From Pedobacter rhodius (lineage in GTDB: Bacteria; Bacteroidota; Bacteroidia; Sphingobacteriales; Sphingobacteriaceae), in NCBI RefSeq assembly GCF_027213645.1, contig NZ_JAPWGL010000002.1, positions 744,001 to 808,000 on the forward strand: 64,000 nt of DNA, in the 5' to 3' direction. A program made the position numbers and the translations under genes. The notes below the pieces were generated by a model. It saw only the letters and a program-made list of their open reading frames with translations, did no database searches and had not been told where the DNA came from. Below, piece after piece: positions 995-57,952 of the stretch. Position 1 is the first letter of the stretch, and every line of letters starts with the position of its first letter.

Positions 995-1033
995 AATTAA
1001 TTATTGTTTTACAATAATTAATTATTAATTTTG
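995..1033 (+). promoter_or_regulatory. Promoter with overlapping palindromic operator for the DUF2975/XRE pair
   Basis: A 13-bp perfect inverted repeat lies at 995-1007 and 1011-1023, centred on TTATTG-N5-CAATAA (1001-1017). A Bacteroidota-type promoter overlaps it: ATTG at 1003-1006, 19 bases, then TAATTTTG at 1026-1033, matching TAnnTTTG. The start codon follows at 1057. A protein bound to the palindrome would cover the -33 element, so autorepression by the XRE protein is the likely reading. The same core occurs in front of the paralogous cassette near 56.8 kb. Confidence 0.6.
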
Positions 1034-1056: not shown

Positions 1057-1572
1057 ATGAAATTAATCCGAATTATCTCTACATTCTTATTCTACATAGC
1101 CCGGGTTTTCTCTGGTGGTTATATTTTAACCGCCCTGCATGTGCTATTATCCGTATCACTTAAACTTTCAACTCTGGAAATACTGAAAACCGGTCGCTTC
1201 ATTATTTATTATCCATTCACAAACAAACGTTTTCTATTAGGCTCTTCCTATACGAAAAACTACATTGCCGAGATGATCCTATTAATTACCTTTTACGGTA
1301 CCTTTTTCTGGTTATTGAGCGATGTGTTTAAAACGTTCAGGCAAAAAAAATTATTTACCATAGCCGGGATTGCCAGGCTCAGATTATTTTACGTCACGAA
1401 TCTGATTATATGCCCGCTTCTTTTTTACATTTTAAGCTTATTTTCTGTTGAAGATTACCCCTATCTTGTAATGGTAACTGCACATTTCATAATGGGCGTA
1501 TTTGCACTATTTATCGGTGCAATATTTCAACAGGGGGTAAATTTGCAAAAGGACCAGGACTTATTTATTTGA
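1057..1572 (+). CDS. DUF2975-family four-helix membrane protein
   Basis: A 171-residue integral membrane protein with about four hydrophobic segments (roughly residues 7-30, 72-90, 107-128 and 138-158) and a short polar C-terminus ending QKDQDLFI. This layout, with an acidic tail of the D/E-DL-I type and a small XRE regulator immediately downstream, is typical of DUF2975 proteins. Biochemical function is unknown to me. The stop codon lies 2 bp before the ATG of the regulator, so the two are almost certainly co-transcribed from the promoter at 1003-1033. Two further DUF2975-like proteins occur at 55.8-56.8 kb. Confidence 0.8.
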   Translation: MKLIRIISTFLFYIARVFSGGYILTALHVLLSVSLKLSTLEILKTGRFIIYYPFTNKRFLLGSSYTKNYIAEMILLITFYGTFFWLLSDVFKTFRQKKLFTIAGIARLRLFYVTNLIICPLLFYILSLFSVEDYPYLVMVTAHFIMGVFALFIGAIFQQGVNLQKDQDLFI

Positions 1573-1574
1573 CC

Positions 1575-1781
1575 ATGCCAATAGTAATTAATGTAGACGT
1601 AATGCTGGCCAAACGAAAAATGCAAAGTAAAGATTTGGCAGAACAACTGGATATTACACCAGCTAATTTATCCATTTTAAAAACAGGTAAAGCCAAGGGT
1701 ATCCGGTTTGATACGCTGGAAGCAATCTGCCGTATATTAAATTGCCAGCCAGGCGATGTATTAGAATATGTAGCAGACTAA
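1575..1781 (+). CDS. XRE/Cro-type HTH regulator (YozG-like)
   Basis: A 68-residue protein consisting almost only of a Cro/C1 helix-turn-helix. The recognition region reads DITPANLSILKTGKAKGIR, followed by TLEAICRILNCQPGDVLEY, the standard ending of small YozG-like XRE proteins. I start it at the ATG at 1575 rather than the in-frame TTG at 1569, because its close paralogue at 55574-55780 begins at the matching MPI residue. It lies 2 bp after the DUF2975 stop. It probably represses its own operon through the palindrome at 995-1023; this is inference. Confidence 0.88.
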   Translation: MPIVINVDVMLAKRKMQSKDLAEQLDITPANLSILKTGKAKGIRFDTLEAICRILNCQPGDVLEYVAD

Positions 1782-1859
1782 ATCCATATCATATTTAATA
1801 ATTTGAAAACGCTTTAAAACAAGGCAGTGCATTGTATTGCCTAAAATTTACGAAACAAA

Positions 1860-2735
1860 ATGAATCATTTATCCATTAAAAACATCAGCAAAACCTACAA
1901 TACGGGTTTAAAGGTCATCAATAACATCTCGCTTGATATTAAGAACGGGGTTTTTGGATTATTAGGGCCGAATGGCGCGGGCAAATCATCACTAATGAAA
2001 ACCATTGTGGGGTTACAACACGCCGACAGCGGGACAATTACTTTTAATGGCGCGGATGTTTCTGCAAACCCCAACGAGATCAAGAAGCATTTAGGCTTTT
2101 TACCGCAGGATTTTGGCGTGTATCCCAAAACCTCAGCATACGATTTGCTGAATCATATGGCCATTTTAAAAGGTGTTACCAATGCTAACGAAAGAAAGGA
2201 ACAGGTGTTAGCCTTACTGGAAAAGGTAAACCTTTTTCAGCAACGCAAAAAGGAGGTGTATACTTTTTCGGGGGGGATGCGGCAGCGGTTTGGTGTGGCT
2301 CAGGCGCTGCTTGGCAACCCTAAAATTGTAATTGTTGATGAACCCACTGCCGGCCTCGATCCGGAAGAAAGAAACCGGTTTAATAATTTATTGAGCGAAA
2401 TAGGTACAGAAATTATTATCATCCTGTCTACGCACCTGGTAGAGGATGTACATAACCTCTGCGCGAATATGGCGGTTATGCATAAGGGTTCAATATTGGT
2501 ACAAGGCAACCCGGCCGACCTTATTCACAAACTGAATAACAGGATTTGGCAGAAACAAATCAATAAAACTGAATTGGCGTATTATCAGAATGAGACAAAT
2601 GTAATTTCATCTCAATTTACCGCCGGTAAGCTTAACATACGGGTGCTTACAGACAACCCTCCGTTTAATTTCCAGTCTGTACCTCCAATGCTGGAAGACG
2701 TTTATTTCGCTACGCTTAACCCAGTAAATACCTGA
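1860..2735 (+). CDS. ABC transporter ATP-binding protein
   Basis: A 291-residue ABC ATPase with all nucleotide-binding motifs: Walker A GPNGAGKSS near residues 36-44, signature FSGGMRQRF, Walker B IVIVDEPTAGLDP, and the switch histidine in LSTHLVEDV. It is of the type that pairs with ABC-2 permeases. The permease gene begins 2 bp after its stop, so the two form one operon and one transporter. The C-terminal ~60 residues after the ATPase core are not conserved enough to name. It would energise the fused permease-peptidase encoded next; the substrate is unknown. Confidence 0.93.
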   Translation: MNHLSIKNISKTYNTGLKVINNISLDIKNGVFGLLGPNGAGKSSLMKTIVGLQHADSGTITFNGADVSANPNEIKKHLGFLPQDFGVYPKTSAYDLLNHMAILKGVTNANERKEQVLALLEKVNLFQQRKKEVYTFSGGMRQRFGVAQALLGNPKIVIVDEPTAGLDPEERNRFNNLLSEIGTEIIIILSTHLVEDVHNLCANMAVMHKGSILVQGNPADLIHKLNNRIWQKQINKTELAYYQNETNVISSQFTAGKLNIRVLTDNPPFNFQSVPPMLEDVYFATLNPVNT

Positions 2736-2737
2736 TT

Positions 2738-5700
2738 ATGAAAGCAATATTTCTTTTCGATATACAAAGTTATTTTAAAAGATGGTCGTTTTGTGCCATC
2801 CTGGTCTTGATAGTAGCCGCGGGGATATTCGCCGGACAAAACGCACGCTTCTCCGTAAGTGAAAATATATTTGATAACTCCCCTTACCAAATCAGCTTTA
2901 TTACCACGCTGATAAGCTTAACAACGCTGTTTTTTAGTACCCTGTTTGCCTCGCAATTATTGTTCAGAGAAACCGACGCCCGTTTTGAACTTATAATTTT
3001 CAGCACGCCGATAAAAAGAGGTCAGTTTGTGGCAGGCCGATATTTATCCTTATTGGTTATGAGTTTTTTATGTACGCTGCTTTTGATTATCAGCTTTTTC
3101 ACAGGACATGCAATGAGCGATCATGCAGCAAAAAGTACAGATTTTTCATTGGCCTGGTACCTGTGCCCGATTGTGCTTTTTGCGCTGATCAACACCATTT
3201 TCACCATGTCAATTTTAAGCTTTGTTGCTTGGTTTACACACAATAAATTACTGGTATACGTGAGTGGTTTGTTATTGTATATATTTTATATGGTAGCGCT
3301 GATTTACTCAGGCTCTCCGTTTATGGCGCAAAGCATGCCCCAGTCGGAGCAAGCCCAGTTTATCTCCGCTATATTTGATCCATTTGGCTTCTCGGCCTTT
3401 TTTTACCAAACGGCCCATTGGTCGGTATCGCAAAGAAACACACAAATGGTATCGTTAACGGGTGTTTTTTTGATAAACCGTTTAATGATCGTATTGATTT
3501 CTGCCGGACTAATCTTTCTGGCATCTAGACGGTTTTCTTTTACCAGCACCAATAAAAATTCAAAGACAAAATTTACAATACCGTTAACTGACGAAAGCGC
3601 AATCTCCACAGACTATCAACCTGTTAAAACCCGGCACCACTTTCACGCCCAGGTACAGGCTTTATTTTCTTTCATAAAAATGGACCTGATATATTTATTA
3701 AAAAGTATCCCTTTCGTTTTAACCGCCATGGCCATTTTATTTTTTGTTGGGATGGAAATGTATGCGGAGATTGAAAAAGGAATCCGTATACCGCAAAAAT
3801 ATGCAAGTTCCGGCTTAATGGTAAGCACAATTATTCAAAACTTTCACGCGCTATGTATGGTGGCAACGTTGTATTACGCACATGAAATATTCTGGAGAAG
3901 TAAAAACTCGAACTTCAATCTGATTGAGGATAGTGCCGCTAACACAAAAACCGGTTTTTTTGCAAAATGCCTTTCCCTTAACATCCTTATTTTACTATTT
4001 ACTTTCCTGATGATTGTTGAAGGAATTGCATTTCAGCTTTTATATCATTATCCATTTATTGATTGGACAACTTATTCCTACATATTTTTATTTAATACTT
4101 TACCACTGCTGCTATTATCCTACCTGATTTTGCTGTTGCAGAAGATGATCCGCCAAAAGTATATCGGACTGGCCGTAACGGCATTGTTTGCTTTTGTGAT
4201 GGCAACCCCTTTAGGTAAAAAAATAGTTTCCTTTCCCCTAGCTAAATTTTTACAACCTTTTAGCGGCGATTACAGTGATATGAATGGCTTTGGTACTTAT
4301 GCCTTGGCCTATGCAGAAAGGTTATCATTTGGTTTGGAACTGGTCGTATTACTCATCATCATCTTTAATACGCCTAAACGCCGGCTAGCTAAATGGCCCC
4401 TTATTATCGGGTTAATATTATTGGGAACAATCCTTTTTTATACCGGGAAGGATGTAATAGCAGGATATCGTGCCAAAGATGTAAATGCGGACCTGCAGGC
4501 GCAGGCTGCCTACGAAAGATCATATAGAAAATATCAGCGCATGCCCATGCCGACTATTACGGCTGTTAAAACAACCGTAAATCTTTTTCCCGAAAAAAAT
4601 GCTTACCAGGTAAGGGGCACATACACAACAGTAAATAACACAGGTAAAAATATCCGTACCATTCTGGTTAATTTCGATGATGATTTTATTATTAATCATG
4701 CCGTATTCACTTTCGGTACAGAGCGGATTTCGGTTGAAAAACCACATCAGCTAATTGAATTGAAAAAAGCAATTTTACCTAAACAGAAGGCGGAGTTTGA
4801 TTTTGATATCAGTTACCAATGGAAAACAGTGAACGGTCACCAGTCTTTTAACGCAATCGTCCAAAATGGTTCATTTATGCGTATTAGCCGTTATTATCCG
4901 CAGTTTGGTTATTTGCAGGCAAATGAGATACAGGATGAGCATAATCGCAGGCAATACCAGCTGGGCGCTATTACGCCTGTTAAAGCTTTCAACGCCCCGA
5001 AAACTTTTAACAACGATTTTATAGACCTCGATATGACTGTTTCAACTTCAGTCAATCAAATCGCTATTGGTGTGGGCGAATTAACAAAGCGGTGGAACAG
5101 CAATGGGCGCAACTATTTTAATTATAAAACAACATCTCCTATACCATTTCGATTCGCCTTATCATCTGCACAATACGCTGTAAAAAAAGAAATCTACAAA
5201 GGCAAAAAATTTGAGATCTATTACCATCCATCGCATTATGAAAATGTAGCGCACTTGTTGAAAAATGCAAAATTGACTATGGATTATTGTGCGTTAAATT
5301 TTGGGCCCTGCCCGTTCAATACCGTTCGTTTCGCTGAAGTTTCCAGCTTTACTAAAGGTTTTGCCGCAACTGCATATCCTGCAACTATTTATATGACAGA
5401 AGATATGTTGTTCCATGCCAATATAAATGGAGACAAACAGCAAGATGTTGTAAATGAATTGGCCGGGCACGAACTTTCGCATTTTTGGTGGGGCAACAAC
5501 CAAATCGCTCCAGATGAAAGAGATGGCGCAGCCATGCTTACAGAATCTTTTGCCATGTACACAGAGATGATGATGCTGAAGAAAATGTATGGTAAAGAGA
5601 AATTAATGGATAAAATAAAAATGCACCTGGGCATTTACCTAGACGAAAGAGGTTATTCGAACGAAGAGCCCTTATATCAGGTAAAAAATGATAATACCTA

Positions 5701-5935
5701 TATTTCCTATTCAAAAGGTGCTGTTATTATGTATCAGTTAAGCGAGTTGATAGGAGAAGCAAAAGTAAACCTCGCATTAAAAAATTTCTTAACGAAGAAT
5801 AAGTACCCCAATAAAAATCCTATTACCACAGATTTTATTAAGGAATTATTTTTAGTTACCGACATAAAATTTCATTCTAAAATTGAGGCGATGTTTACAA
5901 AAATTGAGGACCTAAGCAACTTAAATATAAAATAA
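2738..5935 (+). CDS. ABC-2 type permease fused to M1-family (gluzincin) aminopeptidase domain
   Basis: A 1065-residue fusion. Roughly residues 1-590 contain about a dozen hydrophobic segments typical of an ABC-2 permease, with a soluble break near residues 270-310. The remainder is an M1-peptidase-like region with the zinc motif HELSH at residues 911-915 and a downstream TESFAMY whose Glu-936 fits the third zinc ligand. Twenty residues separate the motif from this Glu, against 18 in typical M1 enzymes. Both HExxH histidines and the catalytic Glu are intact, so it is probably active. Similar Bacteroidota permease-peptidase fusions are known but their substrate is not. It pairs with the ATPase directly upstream. 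Confidence 0.88.
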   Translation: MKAIFLFDIQSYFKRWSFCAILVLIVAAGIFAGQNARFSVSENIFDNSPYQISFITTLISLTTLFFSTLFASQLLFRETDARFELIIFSTPIKRGQFVAGRYLSLLVMSFLCTLLLIISFFTGHAMSDHAAKSTDFSLAWYLCPIVLFALINTIFTMSILSFVAWFTHNKLLVYVSGLLLYIFYMVALIYSGSPFMAQSMPQSEQAQFISAIFDPFGFSAFFYQTAHWSVSQRNTQMVSLTGVFLINRLMIVLISAGLIFLASRRFSFTSTNKNSKTKFTIPLTDESAISTDYQPVKTRHHFHAQVQALFSFIKMDLIYLLKSIPFVLTAMAILFFVGMEMYAEIEKGIRIPQKYASSGLMVSTIIQNFHALCMVATLYYAHEIFWRSKNSNFNLIEDSAANTKTGFFAKCLSLNILILLFTFLMIVEGIAFQLLYHYPFIDWTTYSYIFLFNTLPLLLLSYLILLLQKMIRQKYIGLAVTALFAFVMATPLGKKIVSFPLAKFLQPFSGDYSDMNGFGTYALAYAERLSFGLELVVLLIIIFNTPKRRLAKWPLIIGLILLGTILFYTGKDVIAGYRAKDVNADLQAQAAYERSYRKYQRMPMPTITAVKTTVNLFPEKNAYQVRGTYTTVNNTGKNIRTILVNFDDDFIINHAVFTFGTERISVEKPHQLIELKKAILPKQKAEFDFDISYQWKTVNGHQSFNAIVQNGSFMRISRYYPQFGYLQANEIQDEHNRRQYQLGAITPVKAFNAPKTFNNDFIDLDMTVSTSVNQIAIGVGELTKRWNSNGRNYFNYKTTSPIPFRFALSSAQYAVKKEIYKGKKFEIYYHPSHYENVAHLLKNAKLTMDYCALNFGPCPFNTVRFAEVSSFTKGFAATAYPATIYMTEDMLFHANINGDKQQDVVNELAGHELSHFWWGNNQIAPDERDGAAMLTESFAMYTEMMMLKKMYGKEKLMDKIKMHLGIYLDERGYSNEEPLYQVKNDNTYISYSKGAVIMYQLSELIGEAKVNLALKNFLTKNKYPNKNPITTDFIKELFLVTDIKFHSKIEAMFTKIEDLSNLNIK

Positions 5936-55573: not shown

Positions 55574-55780
55574 TTAGCGTGAGCGAAACTCCAGGATATC
55601 ACCCGGCTGGCAATCCAGAACATTACAAATCGCTTCCAGCGTCTCTAACCGAACAGCCTTTGCTTTACCCGTTTTTAAAATGGATAAATTAGACATCGTA
55701 ATGCCAACCCGATCACTCAATTCGGTAAGTGACATTTTGCGACGGGCGAGCATGACATCTAAATTTATAATAATTGGCAT
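55574..55780 (-). CDS. XRE/Cro-type HTH regulator, paralogue of the one at 1575
   Basis: A 68-residue Cro/C1-type protein. MPIIINLDVMLARRKMSLTE, then VGITMSNLSILKTGKAKAVR and TLEAICNVLDCQPGDILEF, are about two thirds identical to the 1575-1781 protein, so they are recent paralogues. It ends a minus-strand operon after two DUF2975-like genes (gap 18 bp). Likely represses its own operon at the palindrome 56865-56905; this is inference. Confidence 0.9.
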   Translation of the reverse strand: MPIIINLDVMLARRKMSLTELSDRVGITMSNLSILKTGKAKAVRLETLEAICNVLDCQPGDILEFRSR

Positions 55781-55798
55781 AGAATGATGAGGGTAAAG

Positions 55799-56302
55799 TT
55801 AAATCGTTAAATCATTTTCCTGTTTGAGTTTTAACGCATAATTAATTAAATACAAAAACACCCATACAATAAGTATCGAAATAAGCAAATCTGAATATGG
55901 TGCAACTGCCATTTTAGCAGAATAACCCAAACCATCCGCTAAACTTCTATCAGTTGCAAACGGGATCACATAGCGCTTTATCAAGAATAGTGTTGTTATC
56001 TTAAACACCAGTAAACCAACTAAACAGTACCAGATTTTGGTCATTCTTTTCAAACTAGCTGAGGAGACCAAATTATTTAAGATTTTTTCTGAACTGTAGA
56101 AAACATAATATAGGTGATACCCAATAAAAACATAAAAAAAATTGCAAAAAAGTTGCCTCAGTCCATCCAAAAATACCAATGAATCAAATGGTCTTGATAG
56201 CGCAGTAGCTAAACTAATTACCGAGATTAAAATATAAAATCCAAAAATTGATATATAAATTTTAAGCGCATTTTTAACTCTGTGTGATACTTTATTTTCC
56301 AT
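55799..56302 (-). CDS. DUF2975-like membrane protein
   Basis: A 167-residue protein with about four membrane helices (near residues 12-32, 46-68, 88-108 and 136-156) and the C-terminus LKLKQENDLTI. The end matches the neighbour encoded upstream (KLKEENDLTI), so both belong to one family. It starts 2 bp after the stop of the upstream gene. Function unknown. Confidence 0.78.
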   Translation of the reverse strand: MENKVSHRVKNALKIYISIFGFYILISVISLATALSRPFDSLVFLDGLRQLFCNFFYVFIGYHLYYVFYSSEKILNNLVSSASLKRMTKIWYCLVGLLVFKITTLFLIKRYVIPFATDRSLADGLGYSAKMAVAPYSDLLISILIVWVFLYLINYALKLKQENDLTI

Positions 56303-56304
56303 AA

Positions 56305-56817
56305 TTAGATTGTTAAATCGTTTTCTTCTTTAAGCTTTCTATTTGCGTTCAAGACAGCGGACGTAAAAAACATGAGTATGGTTATTATAATGAAACTGAG
56401 GTTTGGAATAATAATAAATGGTGCCAGGTCAGACCATAAAAAAGTTGGCTTTGCAAAATCAATCCCTGATAAATTATTATGATTAATGATAATTGAGGAA
56501 TATATCAAATAAACCATCATTGAAAAAGGAATCCATTTCATAACATTCAATGGCTTAACTAATTTTTCAGACAGGACAAATGAAGAAGAAACTTTGACAA
56601 CATTATCTAAGAAAACGAAAAATGCTAAATAAAAGATGCAGCCGACAGTTGTGTAATAGTCAGATTGATTATGAAAAGCGGCTTTGGAAAGGAAATTGAG
56701 CAGGTAAAGAAATGTTAATATTCCAAATATCCTGACAAAAATCTTTATCAGTACCAATGCCCAAAAATTAGAGACGGCATTTTTTAACTTCCAATTTGTA
56801 AATTTTATAAAAGTCAT
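56305..56817 (-). CDS. DUF2975-like membrane protein, first gene of cassette
   Basis: A 170-residue protein with about four membrane helices and the terminal KLKEENDLTI. I start at the ATG at 56817 rather than the in-frame TTG at 56826. It is the first gene after the palindromic promoter at 56840-56905, and is followed by a second DUF2975-like protein and the XRE regulator. The equivalent cassette at 1.0-1.8 kb has only one DUF2975 gene. Confidence 0.78.
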   Translation of the reverse strand: MTFIKFTNWKLKNAVSNFWALVLIKIFVRIFGILTFLYLLNFLSKAAFHNQSDYYTTVGCIFYLAFFVFLDNVVKVSSSFVLSEKLVKPLNVMKWIPFSMMVYLIYSSIIINHNNLSGIDFAKPTFLWSDLAPFIIIPNLSFIIITILMFFTSAVLNANRKLKEENDLTI

Positions 56818-56839
56818 AGTTTTCAAATAAATTCTGAAG

Positions 56840-56905
56840 CAAACATAAAAATTAATTATTACAAATCAAAATATATTTATTGAATTACAATAAATATATT
56901 TTGAT
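56840..56905 (-). promoter_or_regulatory. Promoter with 18-bp perfect palindrome for the DUF2975/XRE cassette
   Basis: Two 18-bp perfect inverted arms lie at 56865-56882 and 56888-56905 with a 5-bp spacer, centred on TTATTG-N5-CAATAA (56877-56893). On the minus strand TTTG (56870-56867) lies at the palindrome edge, followed by 19 bases and TATGTTTG (56847-56840). The ATG is at 56817. The core word and its position are shared with the operator at 1001-1017. Confidence 0.7.
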
Positions 56906-57046
56906 AATCGGCTATTCCATACCTAGGTGGGCAAATATTCATCAAAACTAAATTGGAATGATTTTTGTTATAAGTAAAACTGTAAAAAACTTGTGCAAAC
57001 ATCAACATTTTCAGCATTTTATCCTTTCTAATTGCTTACAAATTCG

Positions 57047-57054
57047 TAACTTTG
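57047..57054 (+). promoter_or_regulatory. Possible -7 element of rpoD
   Basis: TAACTTTG matches TAnnTTTG 37 bp before the rpoD start. The -33 element is not a clear match (TTTC at 57025-57028, 18 bases away), so the call is tentative. Confidence 0.4.
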
Positions 57055-57091
57055 CACACTCAAATAATTTAAGAGCACACAATACGTATAA

Positions 57092-57952
57092 ATGAGACAA
57101 CTCAAGATAACGCAATCCATTACCAACCGTGAAAGTCAGTCATTAGATAAATACTTACATGAAATTGGTAAAGTAGATTTAATAACAGCAGAAGAGGAAG
57201 TAATTTTAGCAAGGAAAATTCGTGAAGGTGATCAGGCTGCATTAGAGCGACTTACCAAAACAAACTTACGTTTCGTTGTTTCTGTAGCAAAACAATACCA
57301 AAATCAGGGCTTAACTTTAGGCGATTTAATTAACGAAGGTAACTTAGGCTTAATTAAAGCGGCAAAGCGTTTTGATGAAACCAAAGGTTTCAAATTTATT
57401 TCTTATGCTGTTTGGTGGATTCGTCAGTCTATTTTGCAGGCCATTGCAGAACAAAGCCGTATTGTACGTTTGCCATTAAACCAGGTTGGTTCACTAAGTA
57501 AAATTAGTAAAGCTTTTTCTAAATTAGAGCAGGAATATGAGCGTGAGCCTTCACCTGAAGAATTGGCAGATATTTTAGAAACTACTGTTGACAAAATCTC
57601 TGACACATTAAGTAATTCGGGTCGCCACGTATCGATGGATGCACCTTTTGTTCAAGGGGAAGAAAACACATTGTTAGATGTGTTGGAAAACCATGAACCA
57701 AATACCGACAGTTCATTAATTAATGAATCATTATCAGAAGAAATCAAACGTTCTTTATCTACCTTAACAGAAAGAGAAAGAGAAATTATTGTTTTATTCT
57801 TTGGTTTAGGCTCCAATCATCCGCTTTCGTTAGAAGAGATTGGCGAGAAATTTAACTTAACGCGTGAACGTGTACGTCAGATTAAAGATAAAGCGCTACA
57901 ACGCTTACGTCATACTTCAAGAAGTAAAATTTTAAAATCATATTTAGGATAA
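57092..57952 (+). CDS. rpoD: Primary RNA polymerase sigma factor RpoD (SigA), short Bacteroidota form
   Basis: A 286-residue group 1 sigma factor, shorter than in Proteobacteria because the N-terminal and non-conserved regions are missing, as is usual in Bacteroidota. Region 1.2 is [27 protein letters not shown]; region 2 is [57 protein letters not shown]; region 4 is [49 protein letters not shown]. It directs most housekeeping transcription and recognises the TTTG/TAnnTTTG promoter. A good terminator follows. Confidence 0.96.

Follow-up and report, generated by a model that had tools for sequence, protein, structure and literature searches.

A probable autoregulatory operator of DUF2975/XRE gene pairs, overlapping the promoter and repeated at 21 bp in Bacteroidota and Bacillota

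SinR and the C-proteins (C.AhdI, C.BclI) are small XRE proteins that work at nearby promoters; to our knowledge they have no membrane partner, and their operators differ from the one described here. In Bacillus subtilis, the membrane protein SdpI is thought to hold the autorepressor SdpR at the membrane and so to lift repression; SdpR is an ArsR-type regulator and SdpI belongs to another membrane family than DUF2975. In the CylR1/CylR2 system of Enterococcus faecalis, a small stand-alone XRE repressor acts on the promoter and a predicted multi-span membrane protein is needed for induction, without a phosphorelay (PMC3709268). The association of an Xre protein with a YoaS-like membrane protein was tabulated by Makarova et al. 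2009 and set aside as non-toxin-antitoxin (PMC2701414). This YoaS/YozG-type pair (DUF2975, PF11188, with HTH_26, PF13443) is the same gene pair as the one analysed here; PMC2701414 gives the gene association alone, and the operator, array and tail reported below come from the present analysis. The open-access literature searched yielded no operator, array or tail of a DUF2975/XRE pair, and on DUF2975 function, HTH_26 operators and yoaS/yozG it yielded just the 2009 table and one microarray row.

The window, which is the whole 64-kb stretch of DNA analysed, contains two such cassettes, cassette B at 1 kb and the paralogous cassette A 55 kb away, with the following features.

1001-1017, strandless palindrome: candidate operator core of cassette B, TTATTGTTTTACAATAA, read as TTATTG-TTTTA-CAATAA; its TTATTG (1001-1006) is also the predicted -33 element
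1022-1027, plus: TTATTA, a further left half-site located exactly 21 bp past the TTATTG of the core, at the 21-bp peak found across loci
1026-1033, plus: -7 element TAATTTTG (TAnnTTTG), N19 after TTATTG (1001-1006)
1057-1572, plus: DUF2975 membrane protein of cassette B, 171 aa, four predicted helices (PF11188, 29.2 bits, cut-off 27)
1575-1781, plus: 68-aa XRE regulator of cassette B (HTH_26, PF13443, 86.4 bits), starting 2-3 nt past the DUF2975 stop
1860-2735, plus: ABC transporter ATPase
2738-5935, plus: ABC permease that, to judge by its translation, carries a fused M1-type aminopeptidase domain
55574-55780, minus: 68-aa XRE regulator of cassette A (HTH_26, 85.7 bits)
55799-56302, minus: second of the two DUF2975-like proteins in cassette A, 167 aa, with tail KQENDLTI (20.1 bits)
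56305-56817, minus: first of the two DUF2975-like proteins in cassette A, 170 aa counted from the ATG at 56817, with tail KEENDLTI (22.3 bits)
56840-56847, minus: -7 element TATGTTTG of cassette A, N19 after ATTTTG
56856-56872, minus: degenerate second candidate operator of cassette A, ATTTTG-ATTTG-TAATAA, 21 bp downstream of the core; its ATTTTG (56872-56867) is the predicted -33 element
56877-56893, strandless palindrome: candidate operator core of cassette A, TTATTGAATTACAATAA (minus strand TTATTGTAATTCAATAA), with 18-bp perfect arms
56898-56914, minus: degenerate third candidate operator of cassette A, TAGCCG-ATTAT-CAAAAT, 21 bp upstream of the core
57092-57952, plus: primary-sigma-like gene (rpoD type), divergent from cassette A, with synteny kept across the genus

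The palindrome of cassette B has perfect arms of 12 bp (995-1006 and 1012-1023) and one inner T-A pair, 13 bp in all, which bears out the initial annotation of a TTATTG-N5-CAATAA core inside a 13-bp perfect inverted repeat. With the Bacteroidota promoter grammar TTTG-N17-19-TAnnTTTG, a TAnnTTTG -7 element was found at N19 from a TTG-containing -33 element in both cassettes, as TTATTG-N19-TAATTTTG at 1001-1033 and as ATTTTG-N19-TATGTTTG at 56872-56840. The former is a good Bacteroidota promoter, and the overlap of the core with the -33 element that had been proposed is therefore correct for cassette B. At cassette A it does not hold in that form, as the -33 element is covered by a degenerate copy, with the perfect core 21 bp further upstream. 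Likewise, the exact core that had been noted before the paralogous cassette is present, but its position relative to the -33 element is not the same.

Both XRE regulators scored well above the curated PF13443 cut-off of 22. The two DUF2975-like proteins of cassette A fell below the PF11188 cut-off; their matches nonetheless reach the end of the profile and their tail is the same. The cassette B protein ends in NLQKDQDLFI (codons to 1569). Cassette A is arranged as two DUF2975-like genes followed by the XRE (56817-55574, minus). The divergent arrangement of cassette A and the primary-sigma-like gene recurs in about 40 loci, and solo XREs hold the same sigma-adjacent place in other genera after loss of DUF2975. 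The promoter of the sigma gene lies about 200 bp from the cassette A operator (window 55574-57952). The cassette B type, defined by XREs with MQSKELAE, is followed 3' by an ABC ATPase in 19/23 loci (58-74% identical), and the permease/M1 peptidase gene (2738-5935) is the probable fourth gene of the unit. This suggests a four-gene unit DUF2975-XRE-ABC-permease/M1 peptidase at 1057-5935. A serine hydrolase of the beta-lactamase family, assigned by eye from the translation, is divergent from cassette B (2-697, minus).

Counts of the motif within the window were uninformative, with 13 matches at ≤2 mismatches vs 11.9 expected by chance. The whole genome (4.68 Mb) contains three exact copies of TTATTG-N5-CAATAA, two of them at cassettes B and A, and directly behind these two lie all the XREs of this kind (two) and all the DUF2975 genes (three) that the genome was found to encode. 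The third exact copy (L001) is within an unrelated ORF and was treated as a chance match. At ≤1 mismatch the genome showed 42 matches vs 41 in the control, which is background. In Bacillus mojavensis the single exact site in 4.0 Mb is at the DUF2975/XRE pair, and in Tumebacillus avium two of three exact sites are at its two pairs; from these two genomes the regulon looks local.

For comparison across genomes, XRE homologues were gathered with the protein as sole criterion from 60 genomes of the genus, 151 of the family and 247 of the phylum, and further XRE loci were taken from named genomes, among them 59 Bacillota loci (75-83% identity) from Bacillus, Paenibacillus, Geobacillus, Trichococcus, Desulfosporosinus and others. 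The motif was searched within ≤2.3 kb upstream of the XRE, with the same motif reversed as control. TTATTG-N5-C[A/G]ATAA was exact in 170/267 loci and present at ≤1 mismatch in 221/267 (reversed control 0 and 7); because the loci were gathered through the XRE, close relatives are over-represented and these counts are not independent events. Exact matches and matches at ≤1 mismatch were found in 38 and 50 of the 70 genus loci, 32 and 42 of 60 in other genera of the family, 38 and 51 of 58 in other families of the phylum, 49 and 58 of 59 in Bacillota, and 13 and 20 of 20 in other named genomes. The centre of the site is mostly 40-70 bp ahead of the next gene start. The remaining 46/267 loci had no site at ≤1 mismatch and showed other palindromes, none, or too little upstream sequence. 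The motif was thus present upstream of other DUF2975/XRE pairs, where its absence would have spoken against the initial annotation.

A motif-free census of spaced inverted hexamers ranked TTATTG-5-CAATAA first (92/189 loci), with the best unrelated motifs in 12 and 11 loci. These two, TGAAAC-N5-GTTTCA and CTCTAA-N-TTAGAG, fall within the conserved coding sequence of the sigma gene and were set aside. Ranked fourth was CAATAA-4-TTATTG, which arises where two sites spaced 21 bp apart adjoin. Around 122 distinct cores, left half-sites (1 mismatch allowed) peaked at +21 (52) and -21 (36) and right half-sites at +21 (35) and -21 (33), against a mean of less than 3 over all flank offsets and a next highest value of 13. 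In Bacillota, right half-sites were found at -21 in 40/55 and at -42 in 32/55. As the extra half-sites are exactly 21 bp away, the sites form arrays.

The arrays are also in register with the promoter. In the 122 sites, TAnnTTTG starts 25 or 46-47 bases past the core start, that is N19 after the half-site of the core or one period later, and so a half-site of the array occupies the -33 position in both arrangements; a perfect TAnnTTTG box was not seen at 68/122 sites. In Bacillota, a TTGTAA-17-TTAAAT-like promoter begins with the TTG of TTATTG, in the same place. The left half-site is thus read as doubling as the -33 element in Bacteroidota or the -35 element in Bacillota. Two promoter grammars place the operator alike, which favours occlusion of RNA polymerase, and this geometry argues for repression without proving it.

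The occurrence of the site was compared with the type of regulator at the 43 sigma-adjacent loci. Among those with DUF2975, the site was found at ≤1 mismatch in 22/22. Where intact DUF2975 is absent and the usual K-[T/N]-G-K follows the recognition helix, the site was found in 10/10; in this group L026 retains a DUF2975 remnant with its tail and the XRE match of L077 is truncated. Upstream of the XRE in L026, DUF2975 has decayed with most of the gene lost, and the operator and a QQENDLTI tail persist. XREs with K-N-[Q/N]-K after the recognition helix had the site in 0/11, and since they form one clade this loss of the operator counts as one event. A regulator-specific operator predicts that site and XRE change together, as was seen in two further groups. 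At seven loci with TIVN recognition-helix XREs (L047, L049, L051, L052, L054, L055, L060), an everted palindrome AAAACGATAA-N4-TTATTGTTTT (CGATAA-N4-TTATTG) was found, which can be read as a pair of half-consensus operators spaced by 21 bp, and the partner tails are ENESFV-like. The XREs of L073 and L117 (SMTN) have TTATGT-N3-ACATAA instead, in L073 twice at 21 bp. On the sequence evidence, the site appears to go with the XRE and not with DUF2975, through losses of DUF2975 and changes in the recognition-helix region, and the earlier proposal of an operator specific to this XRE family gains support.

The structure model of the XRE (pLDDT 88) had XRE domains as its best PDB matches (Z 10-11.8). 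The top fold match was CylR2, with 2xiu at Z 11.8 (rmsd 1.7 over 65 residues) and 1utx at Z 11.1 (1.7-2.0 A over 65-66 residues for the two), where ranks with Z within 1 count as tied. SinR-type and C-protein (C.AhdI, C.BclI) domains were also near, at Z ~10. The PDB sequence search with the XRE returned VanU-type 3tyr alone, and the NCBIfam search returned sub-cut-off VanU/TrbA matches alone.

The DUF2975 proteins have a mean column identity of 17%, and the part conserved best is the very end of the protein, which reads ENDLT[I/V]-COOH or closely resembles it. Tails of the L-T-[I/V]-like class were found in 218/236 chained upstream genes. All four codons are used for the penultimate Thr (ACG 57, ACT 34, ACC 31, ACA 30), and the peptide itself is therefore under selection. 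A unit may have up to three DUF2975 copies, and extra copies that do not abut the XRE also keep the tail. CKPGD-type XREs pair mostly with ESF[V/I]-like tails and CQPGD-type XREs never do; with few independent cases, this is suggestive of tail type and XRE type going together. The DUF2975 model (pLDDT 92) showed four long helices, with a beta hairpin separating helices one and two and the fourth helix reaching the C-terminus, and the charges of the loops suggest that the tail is cytoplasmic. A fold search with this model gave scattered proteins, with a best Z of 9.6 that falls in the range of unrelated helical bundles, and no trustworthy relative, although a known one may exist. The ENDLT[I/V]-type peptide is likely a docking tail; alternatively, its role may lie in protein turnover or membrane insertion. 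A Bacillota-like DUF2975/XRE pair with a AIDIKSENDLTV tail was also found in a Candidatus Wolfebacteria MAG (L264, 3001-3204), by transfer or contamination.

Taken together, the palindrome is very probably the operator of the XRE encoded downstream in the same unit. The site is A/T-rich, its half-site resembles a -33 element and matches at ≤1 mismatch in the genome stay at background, as would suit the operator of an unrelated global regulator or a mere AT-rich promoter feature. Such an origin is highly improbable in view of the near-zero reversed control, the concentration of exact sites at the cassettes, the variation of the site along with the XRE, and the recurrence of the motif in two phyla whose promoters differ. 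That the palindrome acts as a leader hairpin in RNA (attenuator or riboswitch) is hardly credible: RNA folding of the strand is possible (z -2.3 and -1.9), but with the folding energy of any perfect palindrome, and the palindrome, which contains the -33 element and extends 5' of it, therefore lies mostly upstream of the predicted transcription start.

The remaining explanations concern the partner. A type II-like toxin-antitoxin system, with DUF2975 as membrane toxin and the XRE as antitoxin and autorepressor, would agree with two small tightly coupled genes, a likely XRE autoregulation and a patchy presence. It is improbable nonetheless, since the operator is kept at solo XRE loci, units have up to three DUF2975 copies, and synteny by the sigma gene or the ABC transporter is stable on the chromosome; the 2009 survey also left the pair out, for want of any known type II system with a membrane component (PMC2701414). 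A more serious possibility, though a doubtful one, is that the XRE binds the site and that DUF2975, merely co-transcribed, is an effector (permease, immunity or stress protein) without control over the regulator, which would sense something else or be a constant autorepressor. Site and XRE do persist at loci without DUF2975, and the YoaS-like partner has been termed a likely permease (Makarova et al. 2009, PMC2701414). Against this stand the exact ENDLT[I/V] end as the best conserved part of a 17%-identity family and the match of tail type to XRE type (CKPGD with ESF[V/I], in few independent cases).

The preferred reading as a whole, an autorepressor operator of a YozG-type regulator relieved by its membrane partner in a CylR1/CylR2-like manner, is considered likely. 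TTATTG-N5-C[A/G]ATAA would be the operator of the 68-residue HTH_26 XRE (YozG-type) of a DUF2975/YoaS-type pair, with one 17-bp palindrome taking one regulator dimer. Further dimers would occupy half-sites 21 bp away, two helical turns on the same DNA face, and this spacing would allow weak neighbours to be filled cooperatively. As the left half-site doubles as the -33/-35 element, binding would block RNA polymerase and the unit would repress itself. DUF2975 is placed in the membrane with its C-terminal helix predicted to end in the cytoplasm with ENDLT[I/V]. From its conservation, its codon use, the XRE/tail pairing and this predicted cytoplasmic end, the tail is proposed to capture or re-set the regulator, most likely by binding it or altering its affinity for DNA; such capture by the tail is about as probable as its opposite. 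The outer part of DUF2975 may sense something in or outside the membrane, upon which repression of the pair would be lifted and, at cassette B, also that of the ABC transporter/M1 peptidase behind it. More tentatively, and at slightly below even chances, the pair may be an ancient phosphorelay-free membrane-to-DNA system of Bacteroidota and Bacillota, in which a C-terminal hexapeptide pulls an autorepressor off tandem operators spaced 21 bp apart and operator, regulator and tail co-change.

Overall, the initial annotation appears correct in substance and smaller than what was found, which is a probable local autoregulatory operator retained in two phyla. The 21-bp arrays, the half-site shared with the -33/-35 element, the association of the site with the XRE, the conserved DUF2975 tail and the ABC/M1 peptidase genes 3' of the cassette B type are new here. 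It is unusual for a local autoregulator that a 17-bp site is kept in two phyla, merged with the -33 element in Bacteroidota and with the -35 element in Bacillota. A very widespread and uncharacterised regulator pair, including that of the Bacillus yoaS-yozG type, thus gains a candidate binding site, an array logic and a candidate docking peptide. The function of the pair becomes directly testable, the motif permits prediction of the regulon, and the ABC transporter/aminopeptidase unit is indicated as cargo of one cassette type.

With regard to the known systems, Bacillus mojavensis (L271) has a 160-aa DUF2975 protein (155.7 bits), with an XRE of 78% identity behind it and the same operator. 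SinR and the C-proteins share the DNA-binding fold of the XRE model. CylR1/CylR2 resembles the present pair in its small XRE, where the likeness to CylR2 is of fold only (~21-23% identity). CylR1 is, however, reported with three spans (PMC3709268) whereas DUF2975 is predicted with four, and the CylR1/CylR2 pair is divergent from the genes under its control. CylR1/CylR2 may be regarded as the nearest characterised mechanistic analogue, as a system that would work in a like manner and not as one to which the DUF2975/XRE pair belongs.
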